A stretch of DNA of 64,000 nt. Source: Candidatus Omnitrophota bacterium. Its GTDB lineage: Bacteria > Omnitrophota > Gorgyraeia > Velamenicoccales > Velamenicoccaceae. Under the pieces are notes generated by a model, which was not told the origin of the DNA, searched no databases, and saw only the letters and a list, made by a program, of their open reading frames with translations. The stretch covers positions 62,001 to 126,000 of the forward strand of contig JACRLT010000003.1 of assembly GCA_016235185.1 (NCBI GenBank). Reading direction: 5' to 3'. Made by a program: the position numbers and the translations under genes. Positions 5,888 through 58,106 of the stretch are shown piece after piece (within the stretch, counting starts at the first letter, position 1; each line of letters opens with the position of its first letter).

Positions 5888-6000
5888 ATTGACTCCTTGT
5901 CTAAGCGCTTGTCCGCCATTGATTCAGTGGCGGACTGCGCAGACTGCGGAGTTAACTTTGTAAGGAACAAGCCTAAAATAGGCAAAGTTAAGGAGAAGAG
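5888..6000 (+). promoter_or_regulatory. Structured leader element D, copy 1, ahead of ilvC
   Basis: A 113 bp intergenic element nearly repeated at 29966. Stem 1 pairs ACTCC (5892-5896) with GGAGT (5948-5952) and encloses GTCT/AGAC, GCGC/GCGC and GTCCGCCA/TGGCGGAC helices. Stem 2 pairs TTAACTTTG (5952-5960) with CAAAGTTAA (5983-5991) and abuts the ribosome-binding site AAGGAG (5990-5995), five bases from the ilvC ATG. CTCCTT (5893-5898) can pair either in stem 1 or with AAGGAG, so two mutually exclusive folds are possible. The structure was read by eye; function is inferred. Confidence 0.6.
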
Positions 6001-12074: not shown

Positions 12075-13165
12075 ATGATTTCAGAGCGCTGATTTTGCTC
12101 AATGCCGTTGATGCTATCGGCAGTGTGCGGATAAAAAAACTCCTGGAAGCCTTTGGAAAGCCGCAAGAGGTTTTTAAGGCTACGCCCCACGAATGGGCGA
12201 AAGCTGCAGGTCTGTCGCCTGTCATGGCAAGGCGCATGCTTGAAACCGAAAAGAGTTTCGATGTAGATGCCGAGATCAAAGAGGCTGGCCGCAACGGCAT
12301 AAAGATCCTGACGGTATACGACGACGGTTATCCCACTCTTTTAAAAGAGGTCTATGACCCGCCGGTTGTCTTATATGTCAAAGGTTGTTTTGAGCCTTGC
12401 GATCAGAATGCGATTGGTGTTGTCGGTTCGCGTGGGGCTTCTTTTTACGGCCTTTCTTGCGCTAAAGAGTTTTCAAATTTTTTGGCCCGAGCCGGCCTGA
12501 CGATCGTATCCGGCATGGCCCGTGGCATTGATACCGCTGCACACAGGGCGGCACTTGATGCCGGCGGCCGTACAATTGCAGTCCTTGGCAGCGGACTTTT
12601 GGATATATATCCTCCCGAAAATGAATTATTGTTCGGTCAGATATCCGAAAAAGGCGCGGTGGTCTCGGAATTCCCCCTGCATACTCCGCCGTTTGCAAAA
12701 AATTTCCCTGTGCGTAACCGTATTATCAGCGGTTTAAGCCGCGGCGTGCTGGTTGTGGAGGCTTCAGCCAAAAGCGGGGCGTTGATAACAGCGCGTTTCG
12801 CGCTTGAACAAGGCAGGGAGGTTTTTGCTGTTCCTGGCAAGGTCTCCTCCGATACATCTTCAGGGGCAAATGAGCTTATCAAGCAGGGCGCCAAAATGGC
12901 CACAGTCCCGCAGGAGATCTTAGAAGACCTGCGTTTTAATTTTATCATGCCGGCTCCTTCTGATGCGGTATCGGCTCTTGACCGCAGTTTAAATCACAAG
13001 GAGATGAAAGTCGTGGATATCTTAAGCGATGAGCCGCTCGCGCTTGATGATATTTCTTGCCAGACAGGATTAAAGGTCCCTGATCTGTTATCTATCCTGA
13101 CGCATCTGGAATTAAAAAAAGCCGTTAAACAGCTTCCGGGGAAGACCTTCGTTAAGAGCATCTAA
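12056..13165 (+). CDS. dprA: DNA-processing protein DprA
   Basis: A 369-residue single-strand DNA-binding protein that loads RecA during natural transformation. An N-terminal helical SAM/HhH-like region (~1-75) precedes the extended Rossmann DprA domain with GVVGSRGASFYG, SGMARGIDTAAHRAAL, GSGLLDIYPPEN, NRIISGLS and SGALITARFALEQGREVFAVPG. The C-terminal ~65 residues are the winged helix of long DprA proteins. The start is GTG at 12056 with GAGAGG upstream, inside the aroK end; ATG at 12071 is the alternative. Its stop codon is the first base triplet of repeat A2. Confidence 0.92.
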   Translation: MSKLEMNDFRALILLNAVDAIGSVRIKKLLEAFGKPQEVFKATPHEWAKAAGLSPVMARRMLETEKSFDVDAEIKEAGRNGIKILTVYDDGYPTLLKEVYDPPVVLYVKGCFEPCDQNAIGVVGSRGASFYGLSCAKEFSNFLARAGLTIVSGMARGIDTAAHRAALDAGGRTIAVLGSGLLDIYPPENELLFGQISEKGAVVSEFPLHTPPFAKNFPVRNRIISGLSRGVLVVEASAKSGALITARFALEQGREVFAVPGKVSSDTSSGANELIKQGAKMATVPQEILEDLRFNFIMPAPSDAVSALDRSLNHKEMKVVDILSDEPLALDDISCQTGLKVPDLLSILTHLELKKAVKQLPGKTFVKSI

Positions 13166-13209
13166 CCCAGAAAGGGTAGACCTTCCTGATACCACATAAA
13201 GGAAGGGTC
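13164..13209 (+). repeat. Hairpin repeat family A, copy 2
   Basis: ACCC-AGAAA-GGGT small hairpin, then AGACCTTCC paired with GGAAGGGTC. The unit begins inside the dprA stop codon (TAACCC) and ends 16 bases before the topA start. A run of A follows, so on the minus strand it could look like a terminator, but no minus-strand gene is present. Confidence 0.75.
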
Positions 13210-13225
13210 AAAAAAAGGATTTTTT

Positions 13226-15304: not shown

Positions 15305-15669
15305 GTTTTTTGTTCTTTCGCAATGCAACGTCCATGTTTTGCCGACAAAATTTTTTGTCCCGTGGAATTCAAAGAATTCCCGGGATAAAATCCCCGCAAT
15401 CCTCTGGATTGCAGGGGACCGTTGGCTTCGGTTTACGTCTCGTTCGTAACGCGAACATTCCCTCGCAAGGAAATAAAAGACCTGTATTGTTCTTCGGTCA
15501 GGTTCGCAACGAACGATACGTAACCCCTCGCCAACCGAAGCGTAGCGAAGTGCCAAAAAATTTTTAATGTCGGCTTAAACACGGACATTGCATTGCTCAA
15601 CAGTAAGGGGATGTAGTATTTCCGATGCGGGTTTGGAAAAATTTTAGAACAGATGGAAAATAAAGTGTC
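15305..15669. other. Non-coding stretch between topA and the DUF3800 gene
   Basis: No convincing gene. The stretch is almost wholly occupied by the long hairpin element E1 (15320-15596). Open frames crossing it on both strands are low-complexity translations of the repeat and lack ribosome-binding sites. The remaining ~70 bases before the DUF3800 start are plain AT-rich sequence. Confidence 0.8.
15320..15596 (+). repeat. Long hairpin element family E, copy 1
   Basis: Imperfect terminal inverted arms of ~40 nt (15320-15358 and 15553-15596, beginning GCAATGCAA and ending in the complement) enclose extra small hairpins (GGAATTC/GAATTCC; CCCC-GCAATCC/GGATTGC-GGGG) and a ~115 bp core (15426-15540). 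In the core CTTCGGTT/AACCGAAG, CGTTCGT/ACGAACG and GCGAAC/GTTCGC pair around an ACCTG...CAGGT hairpin. The core recurs in element E2. A GTTCTTTCGCAA sequence lies at the left edge of both copies. Confidence 0.75.
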
Positions 15670-16347
15670 ATGAATGACAATAATCAAAAGGAAGCGCTTT
15701 ATATATTCTTAGACGAAGGCGGGAATTTAGATTTTTCGGACACAGGCACTAAATATTTTACTTTGACAGCTCTTTCTAAAATTAGGCCCTTTGAGGCGTA
15801 TAAGCATCTTAATGAATTAAAATATAATTTGGTTGAACAAGGCATAGAGATTGAGTATTTTCGCGCATCGGAAGATAGGCAATCTGTTCGCGATTCCGTT
15901 TTTAATATCATAGATAGACATCTTGATCAGACACGAATAGACAGTCTAATTGTTGAGAAAAGAAAAACAGGACCATCCTTGCGAGGAGAAGAAAGATTTT
16001 ATCCTGATATGTTGGGATATTTACTTCTTTATGTTATCAATGGATATGATTTGAGGCTTTTTGAAAAAATAATTGTTTTTACTGACAGCATACCCATTCT
16101 ACGTAAAAGAAAGGCAATAGAGAAGACTATCAAAAAAGTTCTTGCTCATAAGTTGCCGGCAGGCCGCGTTTACTATATTTTCCATCACGCGTCAAAATCA
16201 AATTATGACCTGCAAATCGTTGATTACTGCAATTGGGCTGTTTATAGAAAATGGGAGAGGCAGGACTTGAGGTCTTATGAAACTATTGAAAGAGTTGTTG
16301 AAAGTGAATTTGATATTTTTAAAAATGGGAGCCGCTATTATTACTGA
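15670..16347 (+). CDS. DUF3800 domain-containing protein
   Basis: A 225-residue protein of the DUF3800 family. Seen: the N-terminal acidic motif FLDEGGNLDFS, matching the xDESG-type start of the family, a conserved middle region, and the C-terminal LQIVDYCNWAVYRKWERQDLRSY signature. The family is thought to have an RNase H-like fold and recurs in mobile and defence contexts; its biochemical role is unknown. The gene is visibly AT-richer than its neighbours and lies alone between element E1 and a cluster of GC-rich hairpins, which suggests acquisition by transfer. The ribosome-binding site is weak. The start could also be the second ATG a few codons in. Confidence 0.8.
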   Translation: MNDNNQKEALYIFLDEGGNLDFSDTGTKYFTLTALSKIRPFEAYKHLNELKYNLVEQGIEIEYFRASEDRQSVRDSVFNIIDRHLDQTRIDSLIVEKRKTGPSLRGEERFYPDMLGYLLLYVINGYDLRLFEKIIVFTDSIPILRKRKAIEKTIKKVLAHKLPAGRVYYIFHHASKSNYDLQIVDYCNWAVYRKWERQDLRSYETIERVVESEFDIFKNGSRYYY

Positions 16348-16356
16348 AAATAACGA

Positions 16357-16466
16357 CCGCCTCGACTACTCTTTCGAGAGGGCCCCATGGGCCCTTGTTA
16401 TCGAGGCGGAACCTTTGAGATATTTTTTAAGAGGCATTCCGCGGGACGAGCCCTTTGGATAGCCTC
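16357..16466 (+). repeat. Pair of GC-rich hairpins after the DUF3800 gene
   Basis: Hairpin 1 pairs CCGCCTCGA (16357-16365) with TCGAGGCGG (16401-16409), with an inner AGGGCCC/GGGCCCT helix (16379-16395). Hairpin 2 pairs AGAGGC...TCC...GGG with CCC...GGA...GCCTCT (about 16430-16466). Neither has a T tract. They start ten bases after the DUF3800 stop codon. Upstream of xerC, a further hairpin CCCCTCGCCT/AGGCTCGGGG lies at about 16537-16562. Confidence 0.6.
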
Positions 16467-16596
16467 TCATCGTGATACAGTAAAAATATAACTTATTTAT
16501 CTGGGTCTGTCAAGGGTTTAAATTTATATATAAGACCCCTCGCCTAAATTAGGCTCGGGGTGATTTGTAGACAAAAGGAATTTTAGCAGGCAAATC

Positions 16597-23944: not shown

Positions 23945-24146
23945 GCAATCCAAGCCCCTATACGCAAACTGAAATTTTTTTCCGTTGACTTCGGTTTACG
24001 CCTCGTCCGTATCGCGAACATTCCCTCGAATGGAAAAGAAAACCTGTATTGTTCTTCGGTCAGGTTCGCAACGGACTCGAGCGTAACTCCTAGTCAACCT
24101 TTGGAAAAAAATTTCTGATCGTTTGCTTTATAGGGTCTTGGATTGC
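23945..24146 (+). repeat. Long hairpin element family E, copy 2
   Basis: Terminal inverted arms (23945-23990 with 24092-24146) share long matched blocks: GCAATCCAAG, CCCTATA, GCAAAC, GAAATTTTTTTCC and GTTGACT with their complements. The core is about 80% identical to that of E1, but the outer arms differ in sequence while staying self-complementary. In the core, GTCCGT/ACGGAC replaces the GTTCGT/ACGAAC of E1, a compensatory pair. Confidence 0.78.
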
Positions 24147-29965: not shown

Positions 29966-30086
29966 GATTGACTCCTTGCTTGAGCGCTCGTCCGCCACTG
30001 AATCAATGGCGGACTTCGCAAGCTTCGGAGTTAACTTTGTAAGGAATAAGCTCTAAATCAAGGCAAAGTTAAGGAGAAAAAAGGAA
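29966..30086 (+). promoter_or_regulatory. Structured leader element D, copy 2
   Basis: Near repeat of the element ahead of ilvC. CTCCTT (29972-29977), the GTCCGCCA/TGGCGGAC helix, GGAGTTAACTTTG (30027-30039), CAAAGTTAA (30064-30072) and AAGGAG (30071-30076) keep the same order. GCTT/AAGC replaces GTCT/AGAC of D1, a compensatory change. The ATG is 11 bases after AAGGAG here, against 5 in D1, and an extra AAAAAAGGAA is present. Confidence 0.6.
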
Positions 30087-30418: not shown

Positions 30419-30437
30419 ATCCCGTTGATAAAACTAT

Positions 30438-30484
30438 AACACAGAAAGTGTAGACCTTGCCCATTCCTTATAAGGCAAGGGTCT
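30438..30484 (+). repeat. Hairpin repeat family A, copy 3, in a 5' untranslated region
   Basis: ACAC-AGAAA-GTGT, then AGACCTTGCC paired with GGCAAGGGTCT. The small stem differs from the ACCC/GGGT of copies 1 and 2 on both strands, so pairing is kept. The only Shine-Dalgarno candidate of the next gene, AAGGG (30477-30481), lies in the 3' arm, so the hairpin would mask it. Confidence 0.75.
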
Positions 30485-30490
30485 TAAATA

Positions 30491-31417
30491 ATGGATTTTT
30501 CTAAGATAAAAACATATTCCATAGCCAAGAGAAAGAGCAAGGTGGATCAAACCTTGTTCGCTAAAGCCTTAAAGCGGGGTGTTTCCTTTAAAACATTCCT
30601 GGAGTCCCTTCCTAATATTCTGAAAGCCAAAGAGTTAAAAGAAGTGGCAGGTGCAATTGTAGCCGCCAGGCGCAAGGGTAAGCCCGTGATGTTGTTGATG
30701 GGGGCCCATGTCATAAAGTGCGGGCTTTCGCCCATTGTAATAGACCTGATCGAAAAAGGTATCTTGACATCAGTAGCATTTAACGGTGCCGGCATCATAC
30801 ATGATTTTGAGATCAGCTATTGCGGCTCGACATCGGAAGATGTCGCACAAGCTTTACAAAGCGGAAGCTTTGGCATGGTCCGAGAAACCGCCGAGTACTT
30901 AAATGCCGCTATCGCCGAAGGCGTTCAGGAAGGCCGGGGCTTGGGTGAGTCTGTAGGCCTATTGATAGAACGCCGTAACCTTAAGTTCAAAAAATTGAGC
31001 ATAGCTTATGCGTGCTTGAAAAAGAGGATCCCGTTGACGGTCCATGTTGCCATAGGTACGGACATAATCCACCAGCATCCGTCGGCCAGCGGTGCCGATA
31101 CCGGCGAGGCTACTATGAGGGATTTTAGGAAATTCTGTGAAGAAGTTGCCGGTTTGGGAAACGGAGGAGTAGTGCTTAATTTCGGTTCTGCCGTCATATT
31201 GCCGGAGGTGTTTTTGAAGGCTCTAAGCGTGGCAAGGAATCTGACCAAGGGCGTTACGCATTTTACGACCGCGAATTTTGACATGCTATTCCATTACAGG
31301 CCTATGCAGAATATCGTTTCTCGTCCCGTCGAGGGGGCGGGCCGTGGGTATAATATTGTCGGGCATCATGAGATCATGCTGCCCTTGTTGGCCCAGGCCA
31401 TTAAGGAAAATCTGTGA
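30491..31417 (+). CDS. Deoxyhypusine synthase-like protein
   Basis: A 308-residue Rossmann-like protein that I place, with limited confidence, in the deoxyhypusine synthase-like group. It has no signal peptide. Notable conserved-looking segments are MGAHVIKCGLSP, FNGAGIIHDFEIS, GTDIIHQHPSASGADTGEA, GGVVLNFGSAVILPEVF and YNIVGHHEIMLPLL. Bacteria lack the eIF5A substrate, and bacterial homologues have been linked to homospermidine or other polyamine chemistry. Its position ahead of the heptose kinase gene suggests, but does not show, an envelope link. Own promoter at 30390; translation may be controlled by repeat A3. Confidence 0.4.
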   Translation: MDFSKIKTYSIAKRKSKVDQTLFAKALKRGVSFKTFLESLPNILKAKELKEVAGAIVAARRKGKPVMLLMGAHVIKCGLSPIVIDLIEKGILTSVAFNGAGIIHDFEISYCGSTSEDVAQALQSGSFGMVRETAEYLNAAIAEGVQEGRGLGESVGLLIERRNLKFKKLSIAYACLKKRIPLTVHVAIGTDIIHQHPSASGADTGEATMRDFRKFCEEVAGLGNGGVVLNFGSAVILPEVFLKALSVARNLTKGVTHFTTANFDMLFHYRPMQNIVSRPVEGAGRGYNIVGHHEIMLPLLAQAIKENL

Positions 31418-40416: not shown

Positions 40417-42000
40417 ATGTTCAAAATACTTGTGAGCGATTCTTTATCGGACGAAGGGCTTAATATTTTAAAAAACTCAAAGGAGTTTTTAGTCGATGTC
40501 AAAATAGGCCTTAAAGCCGCAGAGCTAAAAGGTATTATCGGTGATTATGACGCACTCGTTGTCCGTAGCGCGACTAAAGTAACGCAGGAGATAATTGACG
40601 CCGGATCCAAGTTAAAGATCATCGGCCGCGCTGGAGTAGGCCTGGATAATGTGGACCTAAAAGCCGCGACAGCCAAAGGTATTATCGTCATGAATACGCC
40701 TGCGGGAAATACTATTTCTACTGCAGAGCATACGATGACTATGATCCTTTCCTTGTCGCGCAATATCCCATTGGCCGACCTGTCGATGAAAAAAGGCGAA
40801 TGGAAACGAAAAGATTTTATGGGCGTGGAACTTTATAACAAGACCATAGGCATAATAGGCCTGGGCCGCATCGGCATGGAGGTCGCAAAAAGGTGTTTGA
40901 GCTTCGGGATGAGGGTCAAGGCGTACGATCCATTTTTATCCAAGGAAGTAGCAGACCAGGCCGGTGTTGAATTGGTCCGTCTGGAAGATATTTACAGGAA
41001 TGCGGATTATATAACGGTACATGTGCCTCTAACAGAAGAGACTACAGGTATGATATCCGATAAACAATTCGAGATGATGAAACCCGGTGTGCGCGTTGTC
41101 AATTGCGCGCGCGGCGGCATTATTGACGAAGCAGCCCTTGAGCGCGCTCTCGAAAAAGGTAATGTCGCCGGAGCTGCTTTGGATGTTTATGTAGCGGAGC
41201 CGCCAAAGGACCTGAAATTAGCCAAGTTTGCCAATATTGTTTTGACGCCGCACCTGGGCGCATCCACTGAAGAAGCCCAGGTAAATGTTGCGATAGAAAT
41301 AGCGCATCAGATCAGCGATGCGTTATCCGGCAAAGGTATCCGCAATGCGGCTAACTATCCTTCTGTGGACCCGGAGACATACCGTGTGATCCAGCCGTAT
41401 ATCAATCTCTGCGAAAAAATGGGCAGTTTTACCAGCCAGATTTCGGAAGGCGCTATCAATGAGGTAGCAATAGTATATAGCGGAGAAATCTCAAGGCTCG
41501 ATACGGCGCCCTTGACCATGGCCTTGATGAAAGGATTGCTGTCTCCTATATTACAGGACACGGTGAATTTCATAAACTCTATGGCCCTGGCAAAAGAGCG
41601 CGGCATACGTGTTATGGAATCAAAGTCTCAAACTGCCGAGGAGTTTGTAACGCTTATTTCGTTAGAGGTCAAGACGCATAAGGAGACTCATCGTATTGCA
41701 GGGACGCTTTTTACCAAAACCGAGCCCAGGATAGTCAAGGTCGATGAATTTTACGTCGAGGCTATCCCTGCAGGATGCATGATGATCATGCATAACTGGG
41801 ATAAGCCCGGCATTATCGGCAACCTCGGGTCTTTGTTGGGCGAATATAATATCAATATTGCTGCAATGTCTTTTGGCCGCGAAAAACAGGGAGGAAGGGC
41901 CATGACGGTATTAAATGTGGATAGTTGCGTTACTCCGGAGATCTTGGACAGGGTGAAGTCACTTCCGCATATTCTTTCGGCAAAGGCGCTCCAGCTATAA
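40417..42000 (+). CDS. serA: D-3-phosphoglycerate dehydrogenase
   Basis: A 527-residue NAD-dependent enzyme opening serine synthesis. The catalytic and Rossmann regions show RSATKVTQEIIDAG, GRAGVGLDNVDL, IGLGRIGMEVAKR, NCARGGIIDEAAL and the catalytic His in LTPHLGASTEEAQ. The C-terminal part (~315-527) has the intervening ASB domain and an ACT domain (HNWDKPGIIGNLGSLLGEYNINIAAM), the long form that is often serine-regulated. The stop codon begins hairpin repeat A4. Confidence 0.95.
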   Translation: MFKILVSDSLSDEGLNILKNSKEFLVDVKIGLKAAELKGIIGDYDALVVRSATKVTQEIIDAGSKLKIIGRAGVGLDNVDLKAATAKGIIVMNTPAGNTISTAEHTMTMILSLSRNIPLADLSMKKGEWKRKDFMGVELYNKTIGIIGLGRIGMEVAKRCLSFGMRVKAYDPFLSKEVADQAGVELVRLEDIYRNADYITVHVPLTEETTGMISDKQFEMMKPGVRVVNCARGGIIDEAALERALEKGNVAGAALDVYVAEPPKDLKLAKFANIVLTPHLGASTEEAQVNVAIEIAHQISDALSGKGIRNAANYPSVDPETYRVIQPYINLCEKMGSFTSQISEGAINEVAIVYSGEISRLDTAPLTMALMKGLLSPILQDTVNFINSMALAKERGIRVMESKSQTAEEFVTLISLEVKTHKETHRIAGTLFTKTEPRIVKVDEFYVEAIPAGCMMIMHNWDKPGIIGNLGSLLGEYNINIAAMSFGREKQGGRAMTVLNVDSCVTPEILDRVKSLPHILSAKALQL

Positions 42001-42045
42001 CCCAAAAAGGGCAGACCTTACCTATTCCTTATAAGGGAAGGGTCT
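41999..42045 (+). repeat. Hairpin repeat family A, copy 4
   Basis: ACCC-AAAAA-GGGC then AGACCTTACC paired with GGGAAGGGTCT. It starts inside the serA stop codon and ends 11 bases before the next start. As in copy 3, GGGAAGGG is the best ribosome-binding site and is part of the hairpin. Confidence 0.75.
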
Positions 42046-42056
42046 AATATGATCTT

Positions 42057-56645: not shown

Positions 56646-57890
56646 ATGTTCTGGACAAAATCATTTATTGCTACTTCAAAAGATGTGCCGGAGGGCGCCG
56701 AGAGCGTAAGCCACAGGCTGATGTTGCGCACCAACATGGTCCGCATGCTGGTGGCGGGTGTTTATTCTTATCTGCCGTTAGGGTTTAAAGTCCTTTCTAA
56801 TATCGAAGGAATAATCCGGGATGAGATGAATAAGACCGGTGCGCTGGAATTGCTCTTGCCTGGTTTGCAGCCATTGGAATTGTGGCAGCGCACAGGCCGC
56901 GACGAGTTGATGGGCGAGACGATGTTTCGTTTTAACGACCGTCGGGGACGCAAACTCTGCCTAGGGCCGACCCATGAAGAGGCCGTGACAGACCTTGCGG
57001 CCGGTTTTGTCAAATCCTATCGGGATGTTCCGTTCACGCTTTATCAGATCCAGACAAAATACAGAGATGAGTTGCGGCCCAGATTCGGTATAGTGCGCAG
57101 CTGTGAATTCATCATGAAAGATGCCTACAGCTTTGACCGTGACCAGAAAGGCCTGGATATAATTTATGATAAGATGCGCGCAGCCTATGAGAATATTTTG
57201 AAAAGGTGCGGCCTGAATTTTGTTTCTGTGAAGGCCGATTCCGGTTTTATCGGCGGCGATGTTTCGCATGAGTTTTTGGTGCCGGCGGAAAGCGGTGAAG
57301 ACACACTTTATAAATGCCAGGTTTGTAATGAGTTTAAAAGTGTTAAGGAGGTAGAGATTGAGAATTGTCCTCATTGTAAAGCCGATATGGAAAAGATCAA
57401 TGCGCTGGAAGTGGGGCACATTTTTAAATTAGGGGAGAAGTATTCTAAGGCGCTGGGAGTGAAATTTTTAGACGAAGAGGGCAAACAGCAGATCGCACAG
57501 ATGGGGTGTTATGGCATCGGCGTCAGCCGCCTTATCGCTGCGGTTATCGAGCAAAACTATGATGCCGATGGCATAATCTGGCCTAAAGAGGTGGCCCCTT
57601 TTGACTGCCTTATATTGCCTGTGAACATCTCCGATAAAGATGTCTGGCAGAAGGCCGCCAGCCTTCATGACGAGCTTGAAAAAGAGAATTTAAAGGTTTT
57701 GATAGACGACAGGGATGAGCGTGCCGGTGTAAAGTTCAAAGACGCAGACCTATTGGGCATCCCTGCGCGCATAACGATTGGCAATAAATGGGTCAAGGGT
57801 AAGTTGCTCGAAGTAAAACATAGAAGGTCCAAAGAGATGAAAGATCTCGGCGCCGATCAGGTATTGGCTGAACTCCGGCGTAATTCGTAA
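56646..57890 (+). CDS. proS: Prolyl-tRNA synthetase, short form without editing domain
   Basis: A 414-residue class II synthetase. Motif 1 region, GPTHEEAVTDL, RDELRPRFGIVRSCEFIMKDAYSFD (motif 2) and GCYGIGVSRLIAAVIEQ (motif 3) are present, then the anticodon-binding domain (~315-414). Typical bacterial enzymes have about 570 residues with a ~180-residue INS editing domain between motifs 2 and 3. Here only ~45 residues remain, carrying a CQVC...CPHC zinc-ribbon-like element (~222-245). Loss of INS implies no cis editing of Ala-tRNA(Pro). Confidence 0.9.
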   Translation: MFWTKSFIATSKDVPEGAESVSHRLMLRTNMVRMLVAGVYSYLPLGFKVLSNIEGIIRDEMNKTGALELLLPGLQPLELWQRTGRDELMGETMFRFNDRRGRKLCLGPTHEEAVTDLAAGFVKSYRDVPFTLYQIQTKYRDELRPRFGIVRSCEFIMKDAYSFDRDQKGLDIIYDKMRAAYENILKRCGLNFVSVKADSGFIGGDVSHEFLVPAESGEDTLYKCQVCNEFKSVKEVEIENCPHCKADMEKINALEVGHIFKLGEKYSKALGVKFLDEEGKQQIAQMGCYGIGVSRLIAAVIEQNYDADGIIWPKEVAPFDCLILPVNISDKDVWQKAASLHDELEKENLKVLIDDRDERAGVKFKDADLLGIPARITIGNKWVKGKLLEVKHRRSKEMKDLGADQVLAELRRNS

Positions 57891-57892
57891 GG

Positions 57893-58103
57893 TTAGAGTA
57901 GGGAGCAAATTAGGGAATTAAAATCTATCCCGTTTTTGCAAGCGAAAAGAGAGCAAAAGCCGGGATGATTTGCATATTTAGAGTAGGGAGCAAATTAGGG
58001 AATTAAAATCTATCCCGTTTTTGCAAGCGAAAAGAGAGCAAAAGCCGGGATGATTTGCATATTTAGAGTAGGGAGCAAATTAGGGATTAGAGTAGGGAGC
58101 AAA
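57893..58103 (+). repeat. 85-bp tandem repeat array
   Basis: Two complete 85 bp units (starting 57893 and 57978) are followed by two truncated starts (58063 and 58087). Each unit opens TTAGAGTAGGGAGCAAATTA and contains a stem of ATCCCG-TTTTTGC with GCAAAAG-CCGGGAT. The last truncated unit supplies the GGGAG ribosome-binding site of the following cpaF gene. Confidence 0.9.
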
Positions 58104-58106
58104 TCT

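Follow-up and report, generated by a model that had tools for sequence, protein, structure and literature searches.

The E1 locus

A hairpin of 277 nt (E1, 15320-15596) lies behind topA in the window, the whole stretch of 64,000 nt that was analysed, and raises the question of what kind of element keeps a core constant while its arms vary and still pair. The topA stop codon lies 15 nt upstream of E1, and a DUF3800 gene and an xerC gene follow, all on the plus strand. E1 and the DUF3800 gene are the contents of the topA-xerC gap (15305-16596), which is only about 110 bp long in a genome of the same genus (G001) and contains neither of them there.

The end-to-end fold proposed in an earlier, sequence-only reading of this DNA is borne out by an energy of -124.9 kcal/mol (z = -11.3); 200 shuffled sequences averaged -70.1 kcal/mol and none reached the value of E1. 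The minus strand, rather than the strand as written in that reading, folds better. The core said to be common to E1 and a second element, E2, was located in E2 at 23982-24076, and the tip ACCTGTATTGTTCTTCGGTCAGGT is indeed unchanged, being identical at 15480 and 24042 where chance would give 0 such matches. The change of the core helix from GTTCGT/ACGAAC in E1 to GTCCGT/ACGGAC in E2 is present and compensatory. The outer arms of E1 and E2 had been called unrelated, but E2 has an inner segment (CGCAAACT-GAATTTTTT / CAAAAAATTC..TGTTTGC) in common with the majority of E1-like copies; what sets E1 apart is a 61-nt pair of side hairpins (15358-15418) that is absent from E2. The features of both elements, which belong to a family named D1, are as follows.

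15320-15596, minus strand (the better folding strand): E1, full rod-like hairpin of the D1 family
15320-15357, no strand assigned: left outer arms P1-P3 of E1, GCAATGCAACGTCC..TTTTGCCGACAAAATTTTTTG
15358-15385, no strand assigned: optional side hairpin hp1 of E1, TCCCGTGGAATTCAAAGAATTCCCGGGA, common to loci L002-L007, L009 and L011 and to other genera
15391-15418, no strand assigned: optional side hairpin hp2 of E1, TCCCCGCAATCCTCTGGATTGCAGGGGA
15419-15437, minus strand: conserved anchor of E1, CCGTTGGCTTCGGTTTACG, with P4 left (15421-15426, freely varying, paired), a TTC loop and P5 left
15438-15518, minus strand: type A core of E1, with the tip at 15480-15503 the same as in E2
15519-15535, minus strand: right anchor of E1, CGTAACCCCTCGCCAAC, with P5 right, a loop and P4 right (GCCAAC)
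15536-15596, no strand assigned: optional right side hairpin and right outer arms P3-P1 of E1 (..GCCAAAAAATTTTTAATGTCGGCTTAAACACGGACATTGCATTGC)
23949-24138, minus strand: E2, same family, without hp1 and hp2 (family model 86.5 bits, E = 1.3e-19)

Other repeats are also present in the window. A palindromic repeat of about 50-60 nt (AACCCAGAAAGGGTAGACCTT..AAGGTCTA) occurs in four copies that are 71-90% alike (592-640, 13160-13218, 30434-30492 and 41995-42053), and a tandem repeat with an 85 bp unit (81-91% alike) occupies 57875-58104. Apart from these repeats, a match to the FMN riboswitch just under threshold (61.4 bits, gathering 66.2) was found on the minus strand of locus L016 (126-281).

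Architecture and distribution of the D1 family

D1 comprises hairpin repeats scattered through genomes of one Omnitrophota class; no earlier description of such a family was found in the literature searched. A BLASTN search of E1 against its own genome, one of the checks that the sequence-only reading had proposed, returned 33 places with partial or complete matches, some along the whole of E1, some to hp1 and hp2 only (19-115) and some to the core only (100-217). The full span (1-277) aligned at five places including E1 itself, the other four with 81-85% identity. The arms had been described as locus-specific, which holds in that copies elsewhere vary and yet pair; on sequence comparison, however, E1-like arms are shared within sub-families.

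A D1 element starts on the outside with P1, a helix of variable sequence, which an internal loop separates from P2; next come a bulge, asymmetric and on the right strand, and P3 (AAATTTTTTG/CAAAAAATTT), with optional side hairpins on either side inside P3. These are followed by P4 (GTNNNC/GNNNAC, with any triplet), a three-base internal loop, and P5 (GGTTTACG/CGTAAWYCC), which encloses an exchangeable core. At locus L009 (about 1440-1600), part of hp2 and the core of a D1 copy are tandemly duplicated, as slippage at a hairpin would give.

Of the 292 genomes of this class, 33 had a match to a degenerate pattern (CCGTNNNCTKCGGTTTRC); a reversed control gave only a handful of hits. A GTDB-wide scan with the pattern gave 98 stretches; all but about eight of the 80 listed were from Omnitrophota, and these eight are without the right (second) anchor and look like chance matches. 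No match to the pattern was found in viral contigs. With a covariance model, 30 of the 145 genomes sampled proved to carry the family; every one of them belongs to this class, and some had been missed by the pattern. One genome (G083) carries 20 copies by this model. The presence of D1 is patchy within a genus. Its anchor motifs hardly vary and are conserved in many families of this class. The copies lie in intergenic gaps, often no more than about 20 nt from where a gene starts or ends, and their orientation to tandem genes varies (29 against 17).

Pairing and covariation of the arms

Pairing was examined at P4, where both triplets can be taken from the anchors independently of pairing. The triplets were fully paired in 104 of 115 copies, with at least 12 different pairs, whereas shuffled partners gave a mean of 38 and a maximum of 52. 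The arms nearly always pair, but they do not always differ, some being shared within sub-families. Whole arms folded with their own partner at -49 kcal/mol and with partners swapped from other copies at -26 kcal/mol, and the own partner was better than all ten swaps in 92 of 111 copies. In an alignment of 32 diverse copies (A1), 94% of cells were paired and 108 cells were compensated, against 30 after shuffling and at most 31 in slid controls. The 12 copies from G083 alone, which lay outside the model, had 73 compensated cells against 22 (slid controls up to 19), with two-sided changes in 14 of 15 P1 pairs. A constant core with variable but paired arms, put forward in the sequence-only reading as unlike an ordinary MITE, is therefore supported over more than 100 copies.

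Gain, loss and change at orthologous sites

Several orthologous gaps are occupied in some species and empty in others, so that D1 copies have been gained or lost. A block of D1 and a second repeat, D2 (about 430 nt), is present at locus L088 in G137 and absent in G092 and G290. Between plsY and dinG in genus g26 (genes named here from the proteins that flank the site), G083, G210 and G118 carry D1, G144, G028 and G192 are without it, and in G103 it is half deleted; the site between polA and coaE is empty in G201, G144 and G247. No clear target-site duplication was seen when the D1 loci examined were compared with empty sites, the flanks being only about 70-90% identical. The gap orthologous to L088 contains other hairpins in G267, G185 and G161. 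Unrelated hairpins in the same gaps of sister species were recorded at L088 (1135-1566), at sites in these three genomes and G281, and at L351 (G234).

The plsY-dinG arms are AAGGCTGACTGGGG/CCCCAGTCAGCC in G083, AAGGTTGACTGAGG/CCCCAGTCAACC in G210 and AAGGTTGGCTGGGG/CCCCAGCCAACC in G118. They differ between species by two two-sided changes (C-G to T-A and A-T to G-C) and one one-sided change; if the copies are taken as one inherited insertion, compensatory change also occurs after insertion. The core of these orthologues is more divergent than the arms, and core types switch among those of paralogues, which suggests conversion among copies.

A folded strand as the proposed unit of recognition

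These data suggest that what is recognised in D1, or copied, is the folded single strand and not the sequence. The reading favoured for E1, held tentatively and at a little under an even chance, is that it is a copy of a non-autonomous dispersed palindromic repeat that spreads between genes and is read as a folded strand while its arms drift by matched changes. The steps proposed build on what was observed directly (the family, the pairing, the conserved loops, gain or loss, and nesting). D1 would enter gaps between genes, where its gain or loss is seen, and would move through a factor that reads the folded strand, in E1 presumably the minus strand, as the polarity described below indicates. 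The core and the asymmetric internal loops would be held in sequence, and the helices between and outside them would need pairing only. These helices would drift via matched changes, kept paired by selection, by the use of one arm as a template for the other, or by both, and such arm copying may take place when the hairpin forms during DNA synthesis.

The strand that would be read is indicated by several observations. The minus strand (in the sense of E1) forms the more stable RNA of the two in 90 copies, as against 19 with the opposite result; counted by genome, it does so in 47 of 50. Mismatches in the arms are G.U on the minus strand in 42 cases and on the plus strand in 10 (50 and 17 in a looser context); these events are partly related by descent, and collapsing obvious repeats leaves about 24 to 10 by our estimate. 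Strand-specific cytosine deamination could also be a source of this bias. The polarity evidence is partly non-independent, owing to conserved purine-rich loops and repeated lineages, and in the core helices G.U is as scarce as A.C (0.6% and 0.9%); for these reasons action on one strand falls short of proof.

The same polarity bears on a structured non-coding RNA or mRNA 3'-end element, in which a minus-strand or read-through transcript would form a rod whose purine-rich loops bind protein in a regulatory or stabilising role. This alternative, which is rather unlikely, would account for asymmetric, purine-rich loops conserved between freely varying helices, for the more stable minus strand and the wobble bias of the arms, for copies in intergenic gaps, often within some 20 nt of where a gene ends or starts, and for the other hairpins in the same orthologous gaps of sister species. 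Two findings weaken it. G.U pairs are nearly absent from the core, whereas tRNA stems at the same loci contain 5.6% G.U and 0% A.C (only 11 tRNAs). Rfam 15 gave no match to the element at the gathering score, and none that was credible in the whole window, in the E1 region (E up to 10) or in six element loci (E up to 1). The unfixed orientation to tandem genes and the patchy presence within a genus also speak against it. Between the two, a transcript seems somewhat less likely than a recombinase that recognises structure and works on single-stranded DNA.

Possible templated copying and selection on the fold

Two-sided changes greatly exceed one-sided changes (108:4 in A1 and 73:14 in G083), which favours some templated copying. 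Template switching is described as creating, perfecting and maintaining hairpins in the cited parts of two papers (PMC8794818, PMC7202029). D1 may be a set of functionless selfish palindromes, an ordinary mobile repeat in which quasi-palindrome template switching holds the arms complementary while gene conversion between copies homogenises the cores. The excess of two-sided changes, the near-identical cores with different arms inside one genome, the orthologues with different core types, and the template switching documented at hairpins in those parts of the two papers all fit. However, template switching should remove asymmetric bulges, and 101 of 105 copies with alignable arms retain one; a further difficulty is that the anchor motifs are conserved in so many families of this class. 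This explanation is improbable, to much the same degree as a structured RNA.

A further, still less likely possibility is a class of mobile nucleic-acid element in which one arm serves as template for the other whenever the element moves or replicates; its identity would lie in the fold and the loops, its arms would be free and locus-specific, and such hairpins would stack at each other's tips. At locus L215, the right arm of a D1 copy is without the usual bulge and looks like a left arm, which may be a case of templated arm replacement. Hairpin-templated copying would make one-sided intermediates scarce, as they are, but by itself leaves the persistence of asymmetric loops unexplained. A process that only corrects arms would tend to erase such loops, and their retention favours selection on the fold, although an RNA function could also be the cause. 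Templated copying and selection on the fold can work together.

The D2 family and nesting

Among the flanks of 109 D1 copies, similarity was found on the right side in 47 and hardly at all on the left side. The shared right flank is a second rod-like repeat, D2 (AGCGGGTGGCTTGG..GAGCGGGCACGGTGTCC..GGACGAGCG..CCAAGACAGGACCCGCT), whose own outer arms and tip stem are likewise variable and paired.

L039 (1690-1900), L119, L173, L223, and loci L311-L338 of G083 and G103: D2 beside or around D1

In the own genome, as in G059 and G061, the D2 tip consists of a short hairpin, whereas in G083 and G103 it may carry a whole D1. G290 has several D2 loci but hardly any D1. A 92-nt repeat with GTCCGCCATTGATTCAGTGGCGGAC, in two copies (84%) at 5888-5979 and 29967-30058 of the window, resembles the D2 tip stem. 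If D1 is read as a folded strand, its ends need pairing only, so it may occupy a D2 tip and give nested stems with a locus-specific outer part; the nesting is observed, and this would be its origin.

Nesting of D1 at D2 tips in G083 and G103, together with D2 copies that have only a short hairpin, fits the idea that the outer arms are host hairpins such as terminators, with the element inserted in the loop and its locus-specific arms derived from the target, but this is highly improbable, as the empty sites disfavour pre-existing hairpins as the source of the arms outside D2, showing no palindrome that matches them (G092 and G290 at L088; G144 and G028 at plsY-dinG).

Comparison with known systems

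DUF3800-associated RNA motifs are a known class of RNAs, and E1 lies beside a DUF3800 gene. This identity was considered on account of the neighbouring gene and dropped, since DUF3800 was found in 4 of 32 D1 carriers and 7 of 48 non-carriers and D1 is thus not associated with it; the lack of an Rfam match is a second difference. Y1 transposases (Y1/RAYT) and integron integrases are likewise unsupported as partners of D1 in the carriers. Y1_Tnp was detected in 25 of 32 D1-positive and 44 of 48 D1-negative genomes, so that carriers are not enriched, and G061 and G284 gave no match. None of the 32 carrier genomes had an integron integrase above the cut-off. The neighbours of D1 are ordinary genes, belonging to 174 Pfam families with at most four members each and without enrichment.

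The attC sites of integrons have a variable sequence, a conserved fold and asymmetric unpaired features that give strand choice. D1 resembles them in keeping its fold over its sequence and in its asymmetric features, and differs in its ordinary gene neighbours and in carriers with no integrase above the cut-off. Mosaic or nested palindromes in intergenic DNA are also known as the intergenic mosaic elements of Neisseria and the double-hairpin and GC-cluster elements of mitochondria, which are likened to D1 as analogues only. Ordinary MITEs are short, non-autonomous and dispersed with self-complementary ends, as D1 is, but their constant terminal inverted repeats were not found in D1, whose ends vary, nor was a clear target-site duplication at the loci examined, where flanks were only about 70-90% identical; the sequence-only reading had named both as signs of an ordinary MITE. 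The REP, BIME and REPIN sequences are dispersed, intergenic, multi-copy palindromes, proposed in the cited parts of two papers (PMC2817692, PMC8266576) to be non-autonomous and moved by a transposase that acts on single strands (TnpA-REP, or RAYT). D1 shares with them the dispersed, intergenic, multi-copy palindromes as described there, whereas it is far longer (150-280 nt), its arms differ yet covary, and it is not associated with a Y1 transposase. By analogy, D1 may stand nearest to the REP/REPIN palindromes in kind and to attC sites in behaviour; the defining features compared were the transposase for REP and the integrase for attC, and D1 goes with neither.

Significance

Repeats are usually recognised and classed by conserved sequence, whereas D1, in one class of a phylum that has been little studied, keeps its fold and loops while its arms vary, and repeat finders based on sequence would catch only fragments of it. 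The family is a natural test of whether compensatory change arises from selection on a folded strand or from copying of one arm from the other, and it suits such a test because a single genome may contain as many as about 20 copies and orthologous ones are present in sister species. D1 may also point to a structure-specific recombinase.
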